A DNA stretch of 64,000 nt. Origin: Pseudomonadota bacterium. Its GTDB lineage: Bacteria; Pseudomonadota; Gammaproteobacteria; Acidithiobacillales; Acidithiobacillaceae. How positions within the stretch are numbered: position 1 is the stretch's first letter; each line of letters opens with the position of its first letter. The notes under the pieces were generated by a model that was not told where the DNA came from, searched no databases, and saw nothing but the letters and a program-made list of their open reading frames with translations. This document shows, piece by piece, positions 3,188-48,396 of this stretch. Both the position numbers and the translations under genes were made by a program. The stretch covers positions 1 through 64,000 of the forward strand of contig JAKARO010000007.1 of the NCBI GenBank assembly GCA_021821885.1, in the 5' to 3' direction.

Positions 3188-3662
3188 ATGCTGTCGCAGG
3201 CGCGCGACGCCTGGAAAGGCACGTTGATGGCCGTCTTCCAGCCTGGGGAAGAAACAGCACAAGGCGCTCAGGCCATGATCGATGACGGCCTGTCAAAGCG
3301 ATTCCCGACCCCCGAGGTTGTGCTCGGGCAGCACGTCATGGTCGGTCCCTCCGGCAGCGTCGCGGGAAGCTCTGGCCCGATCACATCGGCGGCGGATAGC
3401 TTGCAAATCCGCCTGTTCGACCGTGGTGCGCACGGATCAATGCCGCAGGCAAGCATCGATCCCATTGTCATGGCAGCAGCGGTCGTCCTGCGGCTTCAGA
3501 CAATAGTGTCGCGTGAGGTCGCTGCAACCGACGCGGCGGTTGTCACCGTCGGCGTATTGCAGGCCGGAACAAAGGAAAACATCATCCCCGACGAGGCTAT
3601 TATCAAGCTCAATGTTCGGACATTCGATGCGAACGTGCGGAAGCATGTGCTTGCGGCGATCG
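3188..3662 (+). pseudogene. M20 amidohydrolase (hippurate-hydrolase-like) internal fragment
   Basis: The frame reads ARDAWKGTLMAVFQPGEE, then GQHVMVGPSGSVAGSSGPIT, GAHGSMPQ and GTKENIIPDEA, which are the central blocks of M20D aminoacylase/hippurate hydrolases (metal-binding Glu in QPGEE, dimerisation-domain HGSMPQ). The N-terminal zinc ligands (HxCGHD) and the whole C-terminal third are missing. At about 3663 the frame runs into the C-terminal coding part of a TnpB gene, so an IS605-group element or its deletion product replaced the rest. Not functional. Confidence 0.75.
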
Positions 3663-4001
3663 CAAAGGGGGACTGTCGGGCAGCCCGGACGCAAGGTCCG
3701 GAAAAAGGCGGGCCTCAACAGGGCCATTCTGGACCAGGGCTGGGGCACGCTGCTGCGCCTGCTGGAGTACAGGCTCCGGTGGCACGGCGGGATGCTGTTG
3801 CGGGTTCCGCCCGAATACACCTCGCAAACCTGTCCGGCCTGCGGCGTGGTGGATGCGGAAAATCGCAGGACCCAGGCCGTGTTCGCCTGTCAGCATTATG
3901 GGCACATGGACCATGCCGACGTGAACGCGGCAAAGAACATCCTCGCAAGAGGATTGCAGTCAACGGCGGGGCACGCCGGGGTAGCCTGTTTCGCGGCGTA
4001 A
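3663..4001 (+). pseudogene. tnpB: TnpB (IS200/IS605-group OrfB) C-terminal remnant
   Basis: The frame reads KAGLNRAILDQGWGTLLRLLE, VPPEYTSQTCPACG and HADVNAAKNILARG, the C-terminal zinc-ribbon and RuvC-III block of TnpB nucleases. The first two RuvC acidic residues lie in the missing N-terminal 250 or so residues, so it is inactive as a nuclease. The second zinc knuckle is damaged: the family has CxxCG, this copy has CQHYG, while the RuvC-III Asp (HADVNAAKN) is kept. The 5' boundary is fused to the peptidase fragment. The 3' end leads straight into the element's right end. Confidence 0.8.
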
Positions 4002-4108
4002 GCCGTGAAGTTGGCCGGAACCAAAGGGAACCGGCCAATCAAAGTGGCTGAAGTCAGGCCGCTGCTGGCAGGAAGGAATCCTCGTCCTTCAGGGCAAGGA
4101 GGATGTCA
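4002..4108 (+). mobile_element. Right end of an IS200/IS605-group element, possible omega-RNA scaffold
   Basis: Downstream of the tnpB stop come a hairpin GGCCGG/CCGGCC (about 4014-4036) and the typical right-end block with CCTCGTCCTTCAGGGCAAGG folding on itself and ending GGATGTCAA at about 4101-4109. In this group the 3' end of tnpB plus the right end is transcribed as the guide (omega) RNA scaffold. The bases that follow belong to the cupin gene. Confidence 0.6.
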
Positions 4109-4538
4109 AAGGATTGCTGAGATAGACCTCATCCGATACTGGCTCCATCCAGTCGACGGCTTTTCCATCCAGATATTCATTGATCGCCACATGCTGCATG
4201 GCAGTGGTGTCGGTCGCACCGTGCCAGTGTCGCCGACCGCAGTTGCACCAGATCAGATCGCCGGGACGAATCTCGGTTTTTGGGCCATTCTCGCACTGGG
4301 TCCAGCCCACACCCTGCGTCACTAGCAGGATCTGGCCCAACGGATGTGTATGCCAGTTGGTACGGGCACCCGGCTCGAAGTTTACGACTGCGACACCCAC
4401 GCGTGCGGGAGCCGGTGCGCTAAACCTCTTGTCGATGCGGACATCCCCTGTAAACCAGTCGCCAGATCCCTTGACCGGTTCGGCCGAGCCGGCACGATAG
4501 ACCTGCATATACCCAGCTGCTTTGTCTGTCCCATCCAT
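4089..4538 (-). CDS. Small cupin-domain protein ((R)-mandelonitrile-lyase-like)
   Basis: A 149-residue single-domain cupin. Cupin motif 1 is visible as PGARTNWHTHPLGQILLVT (two His and later Gln/Glu-type metal ligands) and motif 2 as RPGDLIWCNCGRRHWHGAT. The pattern WFTGDVRID near the start and LDGKAVDWMEPVSDE near the end match small cupins annotated as mandelonitrile-lyase-like or carboxymuconolactone-associated; the true substrate is unknown. ATG 4538 has AGGAGGAA 7 bases upstream. The last residues (about LTSSLP) are encoded by the IS605-group right end, so the native C-terminus has been replaced but the whole cupin fold remains. Probably metal-binding and cytoplasmic. Confidence 0.75.
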   Translation of the reverse strand: MDGTDKAAGYMQVYRAGSAEPVKGSGDWFTGDVRIDKRFSAPAPARVGVAVVNFEPGARTNWHTHPLGQILLVTQGVGWTQCENGPKTEIRPGDLIWCNCGRRHWHGATDTTAMQHVAINEYLDGKAVDWMEPVSDEVYLSNPLTSSLP

Positions 4539-4626
4539 GCTGATTTCCTCCTGCCTGTCCTGCCTGCCAAAACAGGCATTCTCACAATATCGGCATGTCG
4601 ATGCCAGACTGGTACTTCACATCGCC

Positions 4627-5095
4627 TATGCCCCGGCAGGACAGACTCCGGTGACCTGTACAGTTGGTGGCACCCGCCAGAAACTGTCAATGATCGCGAG
4701 CGTCACCAATCAGGGAAAAGCGCGCTGGATGATCATTGACGGGGCGTTCAGCGCGGACAGGCGGATTGAATTCATGGGCGCCCTGATCAGGGATGCTGGC
4801 AAAAAGGTATTCCTGATCCTGGACAGCTTGCGAGTCCATCACGGCAGGCCGGTGAAGAAATGGGCTGAAGAGCATAAAGAACAAATCGGGCTGTTCTACC
4901 TGCCGTTACAGTCCCGGACTGAACCCGGAGGAGCGTCTGAATGCTGACCTCAGGCATGCCATCAGCACCAGGGTTGGAGCCCGAACCAGGGCGAAGCTGC
5001 ACAATGCTGCCACTGCCCATATGACGGAACTGGAGCCATCACCTGAAAGAATCAAATCGTTCTTCCAGGACCCAAAGGTTCGTTATGCGGCATGA
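4627..5095 (+). pseudogene. IS630-family transposase C-terminal remnant
   Basis: The frame reads GARWMIIDGAFSADRRIEFM-like segments, AGKKVFLILDSLRVHHGRPV and LFYLPL, the DDE_3 core of IS630 transposases with the second Asp in LILDSLRVHH. At about 4920 the frame breaks: the expected SPELNPDE continues in another phase as LNPEERLNADLRHAI and ends SFFQDPKVRYAA at a TGA (5093-5095). The N-terminal half is missing. Dead remnant, oriented toward the core genes on the right. Confidence 0.8.
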
Positions 5096-5122
5096 AGACT
5101 TATTCGGGCCGGATCAATAGTA

Positions 5123-7360
5123 TCAGGACGCTCCAGACGTACTCCGTCCAAAAAGATGGACATCCTGCTGCTGGTGGGCCAGACGGAGGCCTTTGCGGAA
5201 AAGGGCCTCTACAGCCATCGAACGCAGTTCGGTCTGCACCGTGTAACTGGCGTTGCAGTCTGGAATATAGACCCGCAGGTAGAAAACCAGGGCATTCTCC
5301 GTAACATCCAGAAGCAGTGCCGTGGGGGGGAGTCCGCGGGGATCGTCCTGGAGGACCCCCGGGTGCTGCTGTCCCGCTGCCTCCAGAACATTCCGGACCG
5401 TATCGATATCGGCTGAATGTGCCAGCCGGAAGGGGATCATGAGCCGCAGTATACTGCTGGAATACATCCAGTTGGTAACCTGTCCCGAAATGAGCTCGGA
5501 ATTGGGGACAAAAACCTCGGTCCGGTCAAACGTCTGGATGAGGGTATAGCGGATGCCCAGTCTCTGGACATAGCCTTCCGCGGTTCCGACCTGGATCCAG
5601 TCTCCAACCCGGATTGGGCGTTCCAGCAGCAGGATGATCCCGGACACAAAATTGTTGACGATATTCTGGAGACCGAACCCGATCCCCACCGAAAGCGCAC
5701 CGGCGACAATGGCGAGATTCTGGAGTGCCACGCCTGCGGTTGAAAGTGCCACGATAAAAGCAATGGCAAAACCGAGATAACGGAGAATCGCAAGCAGCGA
5801 ATGGCGTGATCCGGTATCCATGTGTGCCAGAAAAAAGGAGTCACCTGAAAGTTTTTTCTGGACCCAGTTGTTCAGGTTGACCAGCAGGGCCATGAGAGCC
5901 AGGGCGAAGATCCACCGCACCGGCTGGATACTGAACCCTCCGATAGTGTAGCCGCGGGCCATATCCTTCCAGAGCAGGTGGAAAAAACTTTGCGGGACAC
6001 CCCAGACCACCAGCAGAATGAGAAGCGCCGCCAGCCAGACCAGGACATGGGCGAGAATCCGGATCCAGTGCAGCCAGGGCGCCACTTCCATGCCGGCCAG
6101 TCCAAATCCCTGGAGGACGCTGTCCAGCAGTACCGGCTTGCGGGCAGTATCGCCGTGACCCGAAGACTGGATCATCCAGGTAGAAAACAGGGCTGCCAGA
6201 AGGGCCAGCAGCGTAACGGTTCCCCCGGTGAACAGATAGTCTGCAAGATTGCCAAAGCCGGCCAGGTCAAGACAGGGAACCGCAACCGCCCAGACCGCGA
6301 CCGGCAGTTCCAGGATCCGGCGCCTGGGCAGGGATCCTGCGCCCGCCATCCGCCACACCAGCCATGGCACTACCGGGACCAGGGCCAGATGGATAAACAG
6401 TGACAGCGCAGTTCCCTGGAGCAGCACTACCGTTCCCCGGGGATCCAGCCACTGGTAAAGCTGCAGGGAAAGCACTGCGGACGCCAGCAGGCGGAACGGA
6501 TTCCGGGAGGCGCGGATCCTTTGCAGCTGTTCCCGTTCCGGTCCGCCGGGATTTTCCATCCGCTGCAGGAGCTTCCCGAAGCCCAGGGCAAGCACGGCAT
6601 TCACCATCCAGATGGCCAGAAGCAGGGTTACCAGCGGAGACCAGGCGCCACCCGCCCAGACCACCAGTGTGGTGACCAGAAAGGCAGACAGGTGGGACAG
6701 GGTCCGGCTGGCCGGCTGTTTCGCCGGGCGGAGAAACCGGACTCCGGCAAAGGTGGCGGCTCCCAGGGCAAGGGCCAGCAGAAAGATCGGGTTCTGGGGC
6801 AGGGGAGCGCCCTGGACGGTCAGCCAGAGCCGGTTTTCCTGGCCCCAGAATGCCTGGGGCAGATCCGCAAGATTCTGCAGCTGCCGGAGTATGCCGGCAT
6901 TTTTCTGGAACAGCTGCCGCGTATCCAGTGCAGCTTCCTGGCGCTGGAGAGCTGACAGGAGACGGGTGCCAGATGCCAGGAGTACCCGGCACGTGGCCGA
7001 ACGTGCATCGGCTGCCTTCTTCTGGGAAGCCAGCGAATTGCGGAGTGCCGTCAGGCTTCCCGGTTCTCCCGGTACCGGCTGGCCAAGCATGTGCAGCGAG
7101 CGGTTGAGACTCCCAAGAACACCTGCCTCTTCATGAACGCAGGCCGTGGACTGCCGGACGACATGCCGTGCCGAAATGGACCACTGTTTCAGCTGGAGGG
7201 ACGAAGGAGACGGACCCATCAGGTGCTGGTGGATGCTCCTCAGGAGGGTGGCGTTTTCCTTGAAGGAAGTGCTATCTACGCTGGCGGCGTGGACGCTGCA
7301 GGGAAGACCGAGAAACACCAGAAGCAGGACGGTCGGGACGCGGTTCCATAGGATGGCCAT
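5123..7360 (-). CDS. Large MscS-family mechanosensitive channel
   Basis: A 745-residue inner-membrane protein that would open under membrane tension to release solutes. ATG 7360 is chosen because AGGAG lies just upstream and the product starts with a clear signal peptide (ILWNRVPTVLLLVFLGLPCS, cleavage near VHA). Residues to about 190 are a periplasmic helical region, followed by roughly ten hydrophobic segments. The conserved pore and beta domain is near residues 540-640 with GALSVGIGFGLQNIVNNF and ERPIRVGDWIQVG. Size and layout resemble MscK/YbiO/MscM-type channels rather than the short MscS. The gene is alone, directly next to the IS630 remnant. The gating stimulus and any ion dependence cannot be read from sequence. 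Confidence 0.9.
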   Translation of the reverse strand: MAILWNRVPTVLLLVFLGLPCSVHAASVDSTSFKENATLLRSIHQHLMGPSPSSLQLKQWSISARHVVRQSTACVHEEAGVLGSLNRSLHMLGQPVPGEPGSLTALRNSLASQKKAADARSATCRVLLASGTRLLSALQRQEAALDTRQLFQKNAGILRQLQNLADLPQAFWGQENRLWLTVQGAPLPQNPIFLLALALGAATFAGVRFLRPAKQPASRTLSHLSAFLVTTLVVWAGGAWSPLVTLLLAIWMVNAVLALGFGKLLQRMENPGGPEREQLQRIRASRNPFRLLASAVLSLQLYQWLDPRGTVVLLQGTALSLFIHLALVPVVPWLVWRMAGAGSLPRRRILELPVAVWAVAVPCLDLAGFGNLADYLFTGGTVTLLALLAALFSTWMIQSSGHGDTARKPVLLDSVLQGFGLAGMEVAPWLHWIRILAHVLVWLAALLILLVVWGVPQSFFHLLWKDMARGYTIGGFSIQPVRWIFALALMALLVNLNNWVQKKLSGDSFFLAHMDTGSRHSLLAILRYLGFAIAFIVALSTAGVALQNLAIVAGALSVGIGFGLQNIVNNFVSGIILLLERPIRVGDWIQVGTAEGYVQRLGIRYTLIQTFDRTEVFVPNSELISGQVTNWMYSSSILRLMIPFRLAHSADIDTVRNVLEAAGQQHPGVLQDDPRGLPPTALLLDVTENALVFYLRVYIPDCNASYTVQTELRSMAVEALFRKGLRLAHQQQDVHLFGRSTSGAS

Positions 7361-42906: not shown

Positions 42907-43961
42907 TCAGGCCTCCTGGGGATGCGCGCCAGATTCCTGGCAGAAATGGCGGTGCAGGGCGTCGGTGGTGGCGGCCACGAGGGGATGCAGGGAAGGGGTG
43001 AGCCGGGGCTGGCTGCCAAACTGCATGCCCGCAAGATCGGGAGCCGTTGCGTGCATCTGGATAGCGAGTCCAATGGTGTTCACCAGTTCTCCTGTGGTCG
43101 GCCCACCCAGTACCTGGCCCCCGAGCAGCTGCAGGGAGCCCGCGGCAAAAAGAACACGGCAGTACAGTTCTACCGTACCCGGCAGGGCAGCCGGGTGGTG
43201 GTCCGGCATCCGGGCCTCTCCCACCAGAATGGGAAATCCCTCCCGCTCGGCCTGGGCCTGGGTCATTCCGGCCACGCCAAAAGCGAGACCATCAATCTGG
43301 CTTGCATAGATGCTCACGGTTCCCGCATTGTGCCGGGACTGGCGCAGGGCATAGAGGTTCATGCCGGCAATCCTTCCCTCGGCCGCGGCCTGCGAGGCAA
43401 TCAGCGCATGGTTGGCCCGCCGGGTAAAAAAATCCTGCTTGTGGGCGCAGTCTCCGACAGCAAAGACCCGCGGATCTTCCAGACTGCGCTGGAAGCCATC
43501 AACCCAGACCCCGCCAGACCGGCTGAGAGCCAGTCCCATGTCCCTCGCAAGGTCCACCCGGGGCCGCACCCCGATGGCAATGAGGACGCCATCCACCTCC
43601 AGGGGATCGCGGCCGGACAGTACCACCCGGCCGACACGGGCCGGATCCCCACCGGGCTGCAGGGCTTCCACCCGAACCCCCACATGGACCTGGATCCCCC
43701 GCTGCCGGAGACGCTGTTCCACAGCCAGCGAGGCATCCGTATCAAAGGCGGACTGCATCAGGTGGGGCTGCATCTCCACCAGATGGACCTCGATCCCCCG
43801 CTTGCGGATCTCATCCGCAAATTCAACGCCGATAAAGCCGCCACCAATGATCGCCAGTTTCCGGATGCCGGGAATGACCGTACTGAACAGCCGCTCCAGA
43901 TAGTCATACTCCTTGCGGATGCTGAACACTCCCCCGAGCCCGGTACCTTCGATGGGAGGAA
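42907..43961 (-). pseudogene. FAD-dependent NAD(P)H oxidoreductase, C-terminal part (cut by the IS1595 transposon)
   Basis: This is the 3' three quarters of a CoA-disulfide-reductase/NADH-oxidase-type flavoprotein. Visible are KLAIIGGGFIGVEFADEI (NAD site) near the junction, DGVLIAIGVRPRVDLA, and VFAVGDCAHKQDFFTRR (second FAD motif) and TTGELVNTIGLAI. The N-terminal part lies at 48060-48396 beyond the transposon. Removing 43970-48059 plus one 8-bp target repeat joins TGAENF to IPPIEGTGLGG in frame and gives a 463-residue protein. As it stands the open frame could only start at an internal ATG (43929) and yields no FAD-binding half. The insertion splits the pfkB-fbaB-pyk operon. Confidence 0.88.
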
Positions 43962-43969
43962 TAAAATTT
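43962..43969 (+). repeat. Left target-site duplication of the IS1595 transposon
   Basis: TAAAATTT, identical to 48060-48067. The AT-rich 8-bp repeat is typical of IS1595-family targets. Confidence 0.93.
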
Positions 43970-43993
43970 GGGATTTATATACTTGACTACCTG
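43970..43993 (+). repeat. Terminal inverted repeat, vsr end of the IS1595 transposon
   Basis: GGGATTTATATACTTGAC plus six bases; pairs with the reverse complement of 48036-48059 at 21 of 24 positions. It lies between the vsr stop (43987, inside the repeat) and the target duplicate, so the vsr coding end overlaps the repeat. Confidence 0.92.
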
Positions 43994-44442
43994 CCAGCCG
44001 ATGGCGGGATGGCCCGGAATGCCCCGCGTCCAAAGCGCAGCCACCGTGCCGCCCTGTTGGCCGTTGCATCCAGCGTGCGCGGCTTGAGTGCGCATTCCCA
44101 CACGATCAGCACCCGCCAGCCCAACGTGCGGAGTTCCGCGATCTGACTGCGGTCCCGCTCCTGATTCCTGGCGATCTTCGCCCGCCAATACTCGACGTTG
44201 CTGGCTGGCATCCGGCATCTGCTGCAACCGTGCCAGTGCCATTGACACCCATGCACAAAAACAACCGCGCGATGCCCCGGCAACACCAGATCGGGCGTGC
44301 CCGGCAAAGTGGCGCGATGCAGCCGGTAGCGCAGCCCGCGCGCAAACAACGCCTTGCGCAGCGCCAGTTCGGGCGCAGTGTCTTTCGCCCGAATGCGCGC
44401 CATGATTCGGCTGCGGGTGGCCGTGTCGACGGTATCGGTCAT
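43987..44442 (-). CDS. vsr: Very short patch repair endonuclease
   Basis: A 151-residue Vsr endonuclease, which nicks next to T:G mismatches made by deamination of 5-methylcytosine. Family blocks: TRSRIMARIRAKDTAPELAL, LRYRLHRATLPGTPDLVLPG (catalytic Asp in GTPD), VFVHGCQWHWHGC (metal-binding CxWH-type cluster) and ARNQERDRSQIAELRTLGW, VLIVWECAL. It protects against the mutagenic cost of the linked C5 methyltransferase. It is the last gene of the transposon operon and its stop lies within the terminal repeat. Confidence 0.95.
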   Translation of the reverse strand: MTDTVDTATRSRIMARIRAKDTAPELALRKALFARGLRYRLHRATLPGTPDLVLPGHRAVVFVHGCQWHWHGCSRCRMPASNVEYWRAKIARNQERDRSQIAELRTLGWRVLIVWECALKPRTLDATANRAARWLRFGRGAFRAIPPSAGR

Positions 44443-44454
44443 AGATACGGGCGT

Positions 44455-44766
44455 TCAAGGGGAGGGGTCCACCCACGACCAGCCCTCATTCTCGACGATT
44501 TGATTCTCGCGCAGCATCCGCCACCCCAGGCGTAGCGATTCTGGCCGTGAAGGGGCCGATACCGTGCCTATCGTGCGCTGGATGGTTCCGCCACCCCACT
44601 TGAACCGAAGCGTAACGCGCGATCCTCCATCAACCGGAGAAAGCGCCAGGGATACCGTCACGATGCCGCCCGACTTCGTGCGCATCTTGCGCAACTCGGC
44701 TCCGCCGGCCGCTTTATCCTGTTCCAGGGCGGCTAAGCGATTCTTCGATGGGGGAAACGACCGCAT
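44455..44766 (-). CDS. Unknown 103-residue protein in the RM operon
   Basis: A small protein with a charged N-terminus (RSFPPSKNRLAALEQDKAAG), a beta-rich centre (GIVTVSLALSPVDGGSRVTLRF) and a short Trp-containing tail. It shows no HTH, so it is probably not a classic restriction controller (C protein). It sits 7 bases after the endonuclease and 12 before vsr, so it is translated with both. Function unknown; may be a subunit of the endonuclease or a modulator. Confidence 0.6.
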   Translation of the reverse strand: MRSFPPSKNRLAALEQDKAAGGAELRKMRTKSGGIVTVSLALSPVDGGSRVTLRFKWGGGTIQRTIGTVSAPSRPESLRLGWRMLRENQIVENEGWSWVDPSP

Positions 44767-44773
44767 CAGCGAG

Positions 44774-45754
44774 TTACTCCAAGAAGTGGATTTTCAGGCT
44801 TGGGTCCGTCTCGTGCTCGTCGATTAACTCATTGTAACGGGCGACGAACTCGCCAACCTTTATCCGCCGATCACCGGGCTTGAACAAGCTCAGTTCGAAC
44901 ATATTGGTGGCAATGAACTGCTCGATCTCGAAGATGTCGATACGGCTACCGATCTCGATGTCCTCTGCCAGCGCCTCCGCGACCGCCACGCGGGAATAGA
45001 TGGTTACGATGATGGGCCGCAAACCGTGGCTCAGATTCTCTTTGCACTTCTGCATCAGGAGCGCGGCTGGTGCCGTCGTGACGTGAATGCATACGTCGTT
45101 CAACAAAAAGTCGCCGTGTCGCCCTCCGGCGTCGTTCTGATTTGCGCCGTGATGGCGGGCGGGATCGACACCCAACACCAAGTCGAGCTTCGCGCCGATC
45201 AGGTGTTGCGCAAGCGTGCCGGCGAAATTGAACCCTTGTTGCTGGCGCTGGCGATCCTCGGCCTGCTTCATCAAATGTCGGACCATAGCGCGCAGCCCGA
45301 GCGACGGGTCCAGCTTCAACTCAAACGGCTTGGCGGCGAAGAACTCGCGGACCTTTTCAAGCCAGAACTCCATCAACTCCGGAAGATCGAGGGCGTCATC
45401 AGCCTGGAGTGTGTTCAAAAACTCGATATAGACACGCATATGCTGCGGTGCGCCCCGGTTGGTCCTGCCGACTTCTGTTCCGAGCGACTTGTCGATGCCG
45501 TGGGCCTTGAGGATTTTGTTGATATTCGACCCGCTCAGGTTCTTGACCTGTGTTCCGGCGTCCGCCAGAAAATCATCTGGATTGAGCGGGAACATTGGAG
45601 CCTTGCTCATGAGCGTGTGGGTGATAATCAGGCCCACCCCAAGCGAGCCTTTCCGGCGAAAGTCCGTCTCTGACGCCTTCTTGTGGGTGTTGGCCGCAAT
45701 GAACGCGTCAAATCGTCGACGCAACGCAGCTTTTGACAAACTGGCGTCCGACAT
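44774..45754 (-). CDS. Presumed type II restriction endonuclease (DUF4928-like)
   Basis: A 326-residue protein next to a C5 methyltransferase. From memory it resembles DUF4928 proteins, which accompany such methyltransferases. The segment NDAGGRHGDFLLNDVCIHVT near residue 225-245 could be a PD-(D/E)xK-like core (D in GDFLL, E/H-type partner less clear), followed by HVTTAPAALLMQKCKENL. The N-terminal half is helical with RRRFDAFIAANTHKKASETD at the start, plausible for DNA binding. It overlaps nothing and is 3 bases from the methyltransferase stop. Restriction activity is inferred from context, not shown. Confidence 0.65.
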   Translation of the reverse strand: MSDASLSKAALRRRFDAFIAANTHKKASETDFRRKGSLGVGLIITHTLMSKAPMFPLNPDDFLADAGTQVKNLSGSNINKILKAHGIDKSLGTEVGRTNRGAPQHMRVYIEFLNTLQADDALDLPELMEFWLEKVREFFAAKPFELKLDPSLGLRAMVRHLMKQAEDRQRQQQGFNFAGTLAQHLIGAKLDLVLGVDPARHHGANQNDAGGRHGDFLLNDVCIHVTTAPAALLMQKCKENLSHGLRPIIVTIYSRVAVAEALAEDIEIGSRIDIFEIEQFIATNMFELSLFKPGDRRIKVGEFVARYNELIDEHETDPSLKIHFLE

Positions 45755-45757
45755 GAG

Positions 45758-47023
45758 CTATTCCGCCGCTTCGGCGACAGCGTAAACGGGATTTGCGACA
45801 AGTGCGGGTTCGATCAAGTGCCGCGCAAGCCAGGAAACAACCGGGACAGCGACGCCATCACCGGCAAGATGATAGGCGTCGTTGTATCGCGCCGGAAGGA
45901 TGTACGAATCTGGGATGCCCATGAGCCGCGCCGCTTCGCGCGACGACAGCAACCGACTCCTGATTTTCTGCCCCTCGACAACAATGATGATCTGACGGCT
46001 TGAGCCGCCAGCCGGCGTGCGGAGACAGCCCGCCACATCATCGAAGCGAACTTCCGCCCGCTGCCTCTTAACACCCTGATCGTCCAAGCGCGTGCGCTTG
46101 TAGATTGTGCCAACGATCTTCACTTTGGACTTCTTCGCCGCCTTCACCTTTTCCAGATTGATCGGCGTCATCATGGACAAAAGCTGCCGCGTCTCCAAAG
46201 CGGAGTGCCATTCAACGCTTGTCGGCTCATCCTCAATGATGTCGACCAAACGCGCGACACGAGCCGGAGCGTCCGGCAAACGAAGCCAAAGCCAACGCTT
46301 GCGCGCCGCCTCATCCAGAAGGTCAAAGGACATGCCAAAGGCTTCCGGGTGCCACGGAGCGACCGGCGTTGCGCAAACAAGATCGGCGGGAGGGTGGATG
46401 CCATCGGCGAAGCCGACAATGAACAGCCGGGGCCGAGATTGCGGCACGAATTGCGCGGCATCAATCACTAACGGAGCGAAGCGATAGCCCTCGCCGGCTA
46501 ATGCGCCGCAGATCACCGCCATGTCGCGGCCTTCATGCGACGTGATCGCGCCATAGACGTTTTCCAGCACAATGATGCGTGGTGCCCGATGTTCCGCCCG
46601 CAGACCCTGGACAAGTCGCCAGAACTCCCAAAACATCCCCGAGCGTTCGCCTTTCAGGCCCGCGCCGTTGCCGGCCAGGGAAAGGTCTTGGCAGGGAAAC
46701 GATGCCCACGCCAGGTGCGCTTGCCCCGGAAGGTCTGCAACCGCAACCTTGGCGATGTCGTCGACCACAAGTTCGTCGGAATCTTGAAAATTGCGCTGAT
46801 AAGCGCACGCCTTGCTTTCGTCGATGTCGTTGGCGAAACGGCATGACCAGCCGGGGCCAAGGCCGATGCGGGCCATGCCGCCGCCCGCGAAAAACTCGTA
46901 GAAATGCAAAGGGGCGGCTGCGCCGGCAACTGCCTGCGCGAGCGCTGTCCGGCGACCAGGACGGTACGCCAGCACTCGATCCAATGTTCGATCCAGCGTG
47001 TGAAGCCGCGAATCCTGTTTCAT
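45758..47023 (-). CDS. C5 DNA cytosine methyltransferase
   Basis: A 421-residue methyltransferase that makes 5-methylcytosine. Motif I is YEFFAGGGMARIGLG, motif IV is ASFPCQDLSLAGNG with the catalytic Cys of PCQ, motif VI is IIVLENVYG, motif VIII is QFVPQSRPRLFIVG and motif X is near HLAGDGVAVPVVSWL. The target-recognition part lies between about residues 245 and 345; the recognition site cannot be read from sequence. The presence of Vsr suggests that methylated C lies in a context such as CCWGG or a similar T:G-repair site, but that is inference. The start overlaps the transposase stop in ATGA. Confidence 0.94.
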   Translation of the reverse strand: MKQDSRLHTLDRTLDRVLAYRPGRRTALAQAVAGAAAPLHFYEFFAGGGMARIGLGPGWSCRFANDIDESKACAYQRNFQDSDELVVDDIAKVAVADLPGQAHLAWASFPCQDLSLAGNGAGLKGERSGMFWEFWRLVQGLRAEHRAPRIIVLENVYGAITSHEGRDMAVICGALAGEGYRFAPLVIDAAQFVPQSRPRLFIVGFADGIHPPADLVCATPVAPWHPEAFGMSFDLLDEAARKRWLWLRLPDAPARVARLVDIIEDEPTSVEWHSALETRQLLSMMTPINLEKVKAAKKSKVKIVGTIYKRTRLDDQGVKRQRAEVRFDDVAGCLRTPAGGSSRQIIIVVEGQKIRSRLLSSREAARLMGIPDSYILPARYNDAYHLAGDGVAVPVVSWLARHLIEPALVANPVYAVAEAAE

Positions 47024-48000
47024 ACGAACTCTCCCGTGAGATTGGCGTAGGTCAGGCGCACGCCGAGCGTCTTGCCGATAAGGGCGTCGATTCGATCCAT
47101 CGTATGAACCCGCACATTTCCTTCGTTGAGCCGGTAGGCGAATTCATCGACATAGCGTTGCATGTGCTTCTGGCTGAACTGGTGATAGACGCCGTAGAAA
47201 CCGCGTTTGAGCACCGCCCACACGCTTTCGATGCCGTTGGTGTGGGCCATTCCGTCCACGAATTGCTTGGCGCTGTGATTGACGGACCTGTGGTGGTAAG
47301 CCGGCACGTCAAGCGGCAGGCCGACTTTCGGCAGATTTTGGTAGGCGGCGTGCTCGTCGGTGCAGAGTGTCGTTCCCGGCGCGACGTTGGCGAAGATATG
47401 GCCGGTGATTTCTTCGGTCGTGGTGCCATCCAGAACAACCGCTTTCACATGTCCGTCACGCTCGCGCATGCCAAGAACGCCGGTCTTGCCAACCGTGCCT
47501 CGTCCCTTCTTGAGCTTCTTCGATTCGTGCTTGTTGGCCTCTTTGCCGCCGATGTAGGTTTCGTCGGCTTCGACGATCCCTGACAGGAAACCGCCATCGC
47601 TGCCTGCTCCGCCGCCGCAGGCTTCGCGCAGCCGTTGGAGCATGAACCACGCGGTCTTTTGCGTCACGCCGATTTCCTTGGAGAGTTGGAGTGACGACAC
47701 GCCCTTGCGCGATGTGACCAACAGGTAGATTGCGTACAGCCACTTATCGAGGGGCACATGGGAACGCTCGAAAATCGTCCCGGTACGCACGGTGAAATCC
47801 TCCTTGCAGGAGAGACAACGGAAATAGCCCTCGATCTTGCGGGTTTGGATGCGCTCGACGCTGCCACAATGCGGGCAAATGGGCTTTCCGTGCCAGCGAC
47901 GTTCCTCGATATGCAAGCGAGCAGCGCGTTCATCAGGGAACTTTTTGAGGAATTCGTAGGCGCTGATGGTTACTTTCTTGGTCATCTCGCTTATCCGCAT
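47020..48000 (-). CDS. IS1595-family transposase
   Basis: A 326-residue DDE-type (ISXO2-like) transposase. The N-terminal zinc ribbon CPHCGSVERIQ...YFRCLSCKEDF is followed by an HTH (SSLQLSKEIGVTQKTAWFML). The catalytic core starts with GIVEADETYIGGKEANKHESK (first Asp/Glu), then second Asp in TLCTDEHAAYQNL and NGIESVWAVLKRGFYGVYHQ (Glu-type third residue, N-E pair typical of the family). An ATG at 47985 is an alternative start. It is first in the transposon operon and translationally coupled to the methyltransferase. Confidence 0.93.
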   Translation of the reverse strand: MRISEMTKKVTISAYEFLKKFPDERAARLHIEERRWHGKPICPHCGSVERIQTRKIEGYFRCLSCKEDFTVRTGTIFERSHVPLDKWLYAIYLLVTSRKGVSSLQLSKEIGVTQKTAWFMLQRLREACGGGAGSDGGFLSGIVEADETYIGGKEANKHESKKLKKGRGTVGKTGVLGMRERDGHVKAVVLDGTTTEEITGHIFANVAPGTTLCTDEHAAYQNLPKVGLPLDVPAYHHRSVNHSAKQFVDGMAHTNGIESVWAVLKRGFYGVYHQFSQKHMQRYVDEFAYRLNEGNVRVHTMDRIDALIGKTLGVRLTYANLTGEFV

Positions 48001-48017
48001 CGAGTCACGATAGGCGT

Positions 48018-48046
48018 AGATTACTCCCTTCGCGCCAGGGTGTCAA
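48018..48046 (-). promoter_or_regulatory. Promoter candidate inside the transposase-end repeat
   Basis: Read leftward, TTGACA (48046-48041) lies within the terminal repeat; a 17-base spacer leads to TAATCT (48023-48018). It would drive the transposase and the whole RM operon. The -10 is a poor match, so confidence is moderate. Confidence 0.4.
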
Positions 48047-48059
48047 GTATATAATTCCC
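48036..48059 (-). repeat. Terminal inverted repeat, transposase end of the IS1595 transposon
   Basis: Complement of 43970-43993 with 21 of 24 matches; the core TTATATACTTGAC is perfect. Confidence 0.92.
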
Positions 48060-48067
48060 TAAAATTT
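48060..48067 (+). repeat. Right target-site duplication of the IS1595 transposon
   Basis: TAAAATTT, identical to 43962-43969. Confidence 0.93.
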
Positions 48068-48396
48068 TCGGCGCCAGTCGCCAGGATCAGGCGGTCCCAG
48101 ACAATCTCTCCGCCATCCTGGAGCCTGGCCCTCCGGTTTCCCCGGTCGACGGAAACCACCATTCCGGTACGGAGCCGGCCACCCGCCGAGAGCAGGGGAG
48201 CGCGACCGGCCAGGTCCTCGTCGGTACCTCCCAGGGTTCCGAAAATGTAGGGTATGCCGCAGGGAATGACCGCATCTTCCTCCGGCCGGACGACGAGGAC
48301 CCGTTTTCCTGGCCAGAAACGGGCGGCCGTCATTCCGGCCATCATCCCGGCCGGTCCGCCGCCTACCACCAGCACATCCGTTGCCGTTTCCGCCAC
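48060..48396 (-). pseudogene. FAD-dependent NAD(P)H oxidoreductase, N-terminal part
   Basis: GTG 48396, preceded by a purine-rich GGCGGGAGC, begins VAETATDVLVVGGGPAGMMA, the FAD-binding Rossmann motif. EEDAVIPCGIPYIFGTLGG at about residue 40 places a Cys where CoA-disulfide reductases and NADH oxidases have their single redox Cys. The coding stops inside the transposon end after TGAENF. The rest of the gene is at 42907-43961. The start is 29 bases after the pfkB stop, so it belonged to the MFS-pta-pfkB-oxidoreductase-fbaB-pyk operon. Confidence 0.88.

Follow-up and report, generated by a model that had tools for sequence, protein, structure and literature searches.

What joins a restriction–modification (RM) operon to the transposase gene in front of it, beyond their shared position? 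The question is raised by a locus in a stretch of 64,000 nucleotides from a bacterium of the Acidithiobacillaceae (assembly GCA_021821885.1, contig JAKARO010000007.1, positions 1 to 64,000, here called the window), where a transposase gene of the IS1595 family of insertion sequences (IS) is followed by genes for a C5-cytosine DNA methyltransferase, a probable restriction endonuclease, a small protein and the mismatch endonuclease Vsr. A preliminary description had proposed that these five genes form one operon and move as a self-contained package. The element is a real unit transposon of the IS1595 family, of the kind called transporter IS (tIS). Comparison with its relatives further points, with a probability that we put at about 0.7, to a transporter IS with a fixed module of transposase and peptide, behind whose peptide swappable cargo is fused. 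In this arrangement, as the sequences show, the mobile module consists of the transposase and the ends, and its second gene is a short peptide gene overlapping the transposase stop. The peptide is free in minimal relatives and is fused in frame here to the first cargo enzyme, the C5 methyltransferase, with the rest of a presumed type II RM operon and Vsr behind it.

The unit transposon and its insertion site

The transposon spans 4,090 bp (43970..48059, minus strand) and is bounded by 24-bp inverted ends, GGGAATTATATACTTGACACCCTG versus GGGATTTATATACTTGACTACCTG, which are identical at 21 of 24 positions. The repeat on the transposase side (48036..48059, minus strand) recurs in 70 related elements, and that on the Vsr side (43970..43993, plus strand) was identified by comparing the two ends. 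Exact 8-bp copies of the target duplication TAAAATTT adjoin them (43962..43969 and 48060..48067). Beyond these lie the 3′ part (42907..43961) and the 5′ part (48068..48396) of an interrupted FAD/NAD oxidoreductase gene, both on the minus strand. When the flanks are joined in silico with one copy of the duplication, a single oxidoreductase open reading frame (ORF) results, and in five relatives (74–76% identity) nothing interrupts the gene at the insertion point, which shows a real insertion and not a chance arrangement. A coincidence of neighbouring insertions, the danger named in the preliminary description, is vanishingly improbable and was rejected, given the intact site in relatives, the restored oxidoreductase frame, the single duplication, the conserved ends and the same gene order in a sister element (L121).

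Five ORFs fill the element, all directed leftward and spaced by −4, 3, 7 and 12 bases, and the stop of the first overlaps the start of the second in ATGA. The first encodes a transposase of 326 amino acids (aa; 47020..48000, minus strand) with the domains Zn_ribbon_IS1595 (PF12760, 38.7 bits) and DDE_Tnp_IS1595 (PF12762, 146.4 bits), and it scores 203.6 against the NCBIfam model NF033547 (cut-off 75). Residues D146, D215, N255 and K265 are invariant across 18 aligned transposases, in columns that we take to be the catalytic D, D, N and K of the IS1595 family. The inverted ends begin with GG and the target duplication is 8 bp long, as the definition of the family requires (PMC8101967), and four cargo genes share one transposase and one pair of ends, as in a tIS. 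On all these points the preliminary description stands: its genes, spacings, ends and duplication are exact to the base, its parts (transposase, C5 methylase, DUF4928/REase_II, Vsr) were confirmed with Pfam, NCBIfam and PADLOC, its IS1595 unit with one operon and cargo translationally coupled to the transposase is supported, and the uninterrupted site that it advised looking for was found.

The transposase is present in single copy in the host genome (1.74 Mb, 43 contigs), with two weaker matches elsewhere. In the same genome, an IS1595 Zn-ribbon fragment (a 120-aa ORF) lies directly upstream of genes for a second C5 methyltransferase, a Vsr and an EcoRII-C-type endonuclease (L087, G000:C32:30000-37594, positions 3594-7223), which are possibly the remains of a second such element. 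As for transcription, a weak promoter-like pair, TTGACA-17-TAATCT (48018..48046, minus strand), has its first hexamer inside the terminal repeat on the transposase side, from where a single promoter may read all five genes. Such a pair scores at least 9 of 12 in 59 of 70 elements, against a shuffled mean best of 7.7, and the first hexamer occupies the same place in most of them, TTGAC itself being part of the terminal repeat. A stricter promoter scan did not list the pair.

An N-terminal peptide shared with sister elements

The preliminary description missed a feature of the methyltransferase: its N-terminus resembles free peptides encoded by sister elements. This tag comprises residues 1–38 (46910..47023, minus strand) and was recognised with a hidden Markov model (HMM) of the free peptides; its motif LDRTLDRVLAYRP (46958-46996) fits the pattern LDxIxDxVLxYRP, in a gene that overlaps the transposase stop. 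Homology to HhaI starts at residue 38, and plasmid homologues of the enzyme (~60% identity) start at residue 40–41. Among 398 genomes, 28 chromosomal homologues have no IS1595 transposase in the flanks that were fetched and no tag (best score 1.3 bits). In sister elements, a separate gene of 40–65 codons, usually overlapping the transposase stop, encodes the same motif followed by a basic tail rich in Lys and Arg (for example MKTPPELDRIADKVLSYRPKPKTKAAKRRKRRDQ in L183).

The HMM of 74 free peptides gives the window methyltransferase 19.7 bits; of 7,100 shuffled N-termini none exceeds 7.1, and the highest-scoring internal segment reaches 4.4. Trained on free peptides only, it finds the N-termini of seven cargo proteins, namely the window methyltransferase, two further C5 enzymes (L127, L121), two N4/N6 methyltransferases (L128, L016), a P63C protein (L015) and a Beta_protein (L014). 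Across the 398 genomes the profile has two matches, of which the window methyltransferase is the best (E = 4.8e-4); the other, L401, has no transposase at its locus and was rejected as a match by chance. A second tag type, LDMxFDEALxRF, likewise occurs both as a free peptide and fused to cargo, and its HMM finds 12 more cargo N-termini, mainly of Dam, DinD-like and RhuM proteins. Treating the F-type and Y-type tags as one homologous family was not supported by profile comparison. Plasmid homologues of the cargo proteins mostly start past the tag (Dam at 42, P63C at 27–50, N4/N6 at 23–38). The free peptides had no match in Pfam and non-significant matches only in PHROGs. An AlphaFold model of the methyltransferase has a low-confidence helix at residues 4–17, a disordered linker and then the methyltransferase fold.

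Selection acts on the tag as protein and not as DNA, since codon use at conserved tag positions is near saturation (effective codons 4.2 at Leu1, 3.0 at Val8 and 3.3 at Pro13 of the motif). Conservation with near-saturated codons extends over residues ~8–24, and L10, D15, V17 and Y20 are retained in fused copies whose methyltransferases are 55% identical. A transposase tree with 94 rows served to follow how tag and cargo are inherited. Over its 61 tagged rows, tag type changes twice (18–26 changes in 200 permutations), and over its 60 cargo rows, cargo class changes 23 times (permutations 32–41); in the fused rows only (n = 27), the counts are 2 and 13. Judged by these counts, the tag is part of the transposition module, behind which cargo is swapped.

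A clade of elements with exchangeable cargo

A scan of a genome collection with the transposase as query gave 80 related loci, and scans of viral contigs gave many more. Matching ends and a duplication of at least 7 of 8 bp qualify 70 loci, the window included, as elements 1.2 to 4.1 kb long; in 69 of the 70 the 8-bp duplication is perfect, and the duplications are 90% A+T. No such duplication result was seen in 40 trials with shuffled flanks. Among the 48 elements from the genome collection, 23 represent one IS of ~1.45 kb, and at least 13 of the other 25 (non-redundant, on genome contigs) have genes for DNA methyltransferases or for restriction, of types unrelated to one another. These comprise an Eco57I-type gene (L004), N6 types (L006, L074), a C5 gene (L046), a REase_II match (L040), an EcoRI-type methylase (EcoRI_methylase) with GmrSD/HNH (L008), N4/N6 types (L044, L045 with MvaI_BcnI, L082, L083) and Dam (L070, L075, L079), with PDDEXK_11 alongside in L070 and L079. 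In the first downstream ORFs of at least 150 aa (n = 69, including loci without a proven right end), Pfam recognises N6_N4_Mtase in 19, D12 in 11, P63C in 9, C5 in 6, KilA-N in 5 and N6_Mtase in 4. By gene content, then, one transposon clade has repeatedly taken up unrelated methyltransferases.

Close parallels to the element are two sister elements on IMG/VR contigs, with transposases 57–58% and tagged C5 methyltransferases 55–56% identical to those here and with conserved ends. L121 carries transposase, tagged C5 methyltransferase, REase_II and Vsr between perfect 25-bp inverted ends, with no duplication visible; L127 has the first three genes, and its right end falls at the contig edge. Their REase_II belongs to another family (PDLC03501), where the window has DUF4928. 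The terminal repeats, whose lack of conservation would have told against the preliminary description, thus recur in other copies, and L121 has a similar gene order. Its picture of a self-contained package therefore holds in part: the mobile unit is real, but the five-gene set is not fixed, cargo being swapped behind the fixed transposase module. The joint occurrence of the transposase and a DUF4928 gene, which it had suggested searching for, was not encountered again: none of the other IS1595 transposases in this analysis had DUF4928 behind it.

Several observations in these elements stand on their own. The 1.45-kb IS1595 relative (L020-L052), with a ~100-aa ORF downstream, occurs more than 20 times in one gammaproteobacterial metagenome-assembled genome. 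Relatives that encode a free peptide occur frequently on viral-classed contigs (IMG/VR; L118-L197, L222-L362), some of them with PAPS-reductase-like or other cargo. On Roseomonas and Methylobacterium plasmids, more distant IS1595 transposases (L403:3977-6456, L407:757-3310) have three genes behind them, the first hypothetical, the second of PIN/VapC type and the third small. In two elements, a tract of perfect repeats separates the methyltransferase from the start or tag ahead of it: 15 copies of the 8-bp CAGCCGAA in one (L046:2980-3101) and nine of the 7-bp CAAGCCG in the other (L008:5931-5993). With the repeat numbers present, neither methyltransferase is in frame with the upstream start, and other numbers bring it into frame, which suggests that both are phase-variable.

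In the window itself, the methyltransferase (421 aa; 45758..47023, minus strand) has its catalytic fold from about residue 38, as judged from PF00145, TIGR00675, the HhaI match and the structure model, and conserves the motifs FPCQ, ENV and SRPRLF expected of a type II RM methyltransferase. The DUF4928 protein (326 aa; 44774..45754, minus strand) matches PF16280 with 174.7 bits and the PADLOC model REase_II with 110 bits. It is likely, as a prediction, the cognate type II restriction enzyme; DUF4928 genes adjoin related methyltransferases on plasmids. A single-sequence structure model reached a confidence score (pLDDT) of 41 only, a search of solved structures gave no match, and no relatives were found in viral contigs. 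The next gene (44455..44766, minus strand) encodes a 103-aa protein that matches no family in Pfam, NCBIfam or PADLOC. Its homologues lie directly after the methyltransferase or endonuclease gene of C5 systems on plasmids of Xanthomonas hyacinthi, Azonexus hydrophilus (with NgoMIV) and Polaromonas, which makes an accessory role in these systems probable. The last gene (43987..44442, minus strand) encodes a 151-aa Vsr (PF03852), which scores 146.9 bits against TIGR00632 (cut-off 97.85) and accompanies a C5 methyltransferase. Vsr probably corrects T:G mismatches from 5-methylcytosine deamination, a more likely role than the repair of cuts implied earlier. Together, the methyltransferase would protect DNA and DUF4928 would cut unmethylated DNA, giving phage defence and a penalty on loss of the element, and Vsr would limit mutation of 5-methylcytosine to T.

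What the peptide may do

Contact of the peptide with the transposase or its DNA complex is the most likely role, held tentatively and at less than even odds, because the tag tracks the transposase lineage, is selected as protein and carries DNA-binding cargo where the free peptide has its basic tail. In the least certain step of the mechanism, the peptide would bind the transposase or its DNA complex, and docked DNA-binding or DNA-modifying cargo would join the transposition complex in place of that tail. Such docking would explain why the cargo is nearly always DNA-acting. A bolder version, possible rather than probable, is that the adaptor peptide encoded by this IS1595 clade attaches to the clade's own transposase and that interchangeable DNA-acting proteins (RM methyltransferases, antirepressor-like proteins) are recruited by fusion to it, so that the cargo enzyme becomes part of the transposition complex and, for example, methylates or protects transposon and target during movement.

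Addiction alone might instead account for the RM genes, the tag being incidental. Many mobile elements carry RM genes, other RM systems have been shown to cause post-segregational killing and to move in association with IS (PMC3031569), and the PIN/VapC genes behind the more distant plasmid transposases would fit. Stabilisation of the element by RM addiction, as discussed in the same work, is plausible here; as a full explanation it is doubtful, leaving both the shared peptide conserved at the protein level and the P63C and KilA-N cargo unexplained. It is unlikely, too, that the tag is a mere left-over with no function in the fused protein, cargo genes having been joined in frame to the beginning of an older small ORF because its start was translationally coupled to the transposase. 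The ATGA overlap, found in 74 of 81 Y-type cases, the modelled helix and linker, which would tolerate passive extension, and the untagged part of the cargo all suit that account; yet a constraint on the start site would act on nucleotides near the start, and the conservation described above reaches to residue ~24 and persists between diverged methyltransferases. More improbable still is a tag that serves expression or stability of the cargo and not binding to the transposase, for instance as a signal for degradation, regulation or control by which restriction is held back after transfer. RM systems do need control of timing, and expression looks switchable in the two sister elements with out-of-frame repeat tracts, but non-RM cargo (P63C, KilA-N, DinD-like) is tagged as well, a free peptide without fused enzyme exists, and tag type follows the transposase lineage.

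Some results weigh against the preferred reading of a fixed transposase–peptide module with swappable cargo. The patterns recognise a tag in 27 of 71 large first cargo genes and none in 44, and the closest transposases, L004 (78%) and L006 (74%), have cargo with no evident tag. The patterns were defined after inspection of the sequences (false-positive rate on shuffled sequences 0.13%), and homology among the three tag types is not supported (hhalign probability 2%). In addition, the candidate promoter is weak, and the nuclease role of DUF4928 rests on family annotation.

Known systems share parts of this organisation. Transporter IS such as tISCpe8 and MTnSag1 (Siguier et al., 2009, as cited in PMC5704250) resemble it in transposase domains, GGG ends, 8-bp duplications and cargo behind the transposase inside one end pair; the known named examples carry lincomycin resistance and mobilisation functions, whereas the present element carries an RM operon, the first protein of which bears a transposase-linked peptide. 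IS transposases are known to move RM genes in IS-flanked or transposon-like units, as with PaeR7I and in the PluTI and Rhizobium cases (PMC3031569, and cited there); such movement depends on an IS copy at each side or on some other carrier, in contrast to a transposase and cargo in one operon with one end pair. The trio of methyltransferase, DUF4928 and Vsr also occurs without any transposase, as on the Pseudomonas aeruginosa plasmid pNECK1 (NZ_MK047609), with the same gene order and identities of 62%, 49% and 47%, respectively; there the methyltransferase starts three codons before the shared region and has no tag, and no 103-aa gene separates DUF4928 from Vsr. A literature search found no description of IS1595 elements with RM cargo, nor of the peptide, though Siguier et al. 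(2009) may already mention passengers of the RM or methylase kind.

Interchangeable cargo behind a peptide tag suggests a transposon family in which various DNA-modifying enzymes are plugged onto one adaptor linked to the transposase. The element offers type II RM systems a self-contained route between genomes, and the shared N-terminal peptide offers a direct way to test how cargo is chosen, expressed or deployed by these transposons. If the peptide does dock cargo to the transposase, DNA modification would be an integral part of how the element transposes, and not a passive passenger.

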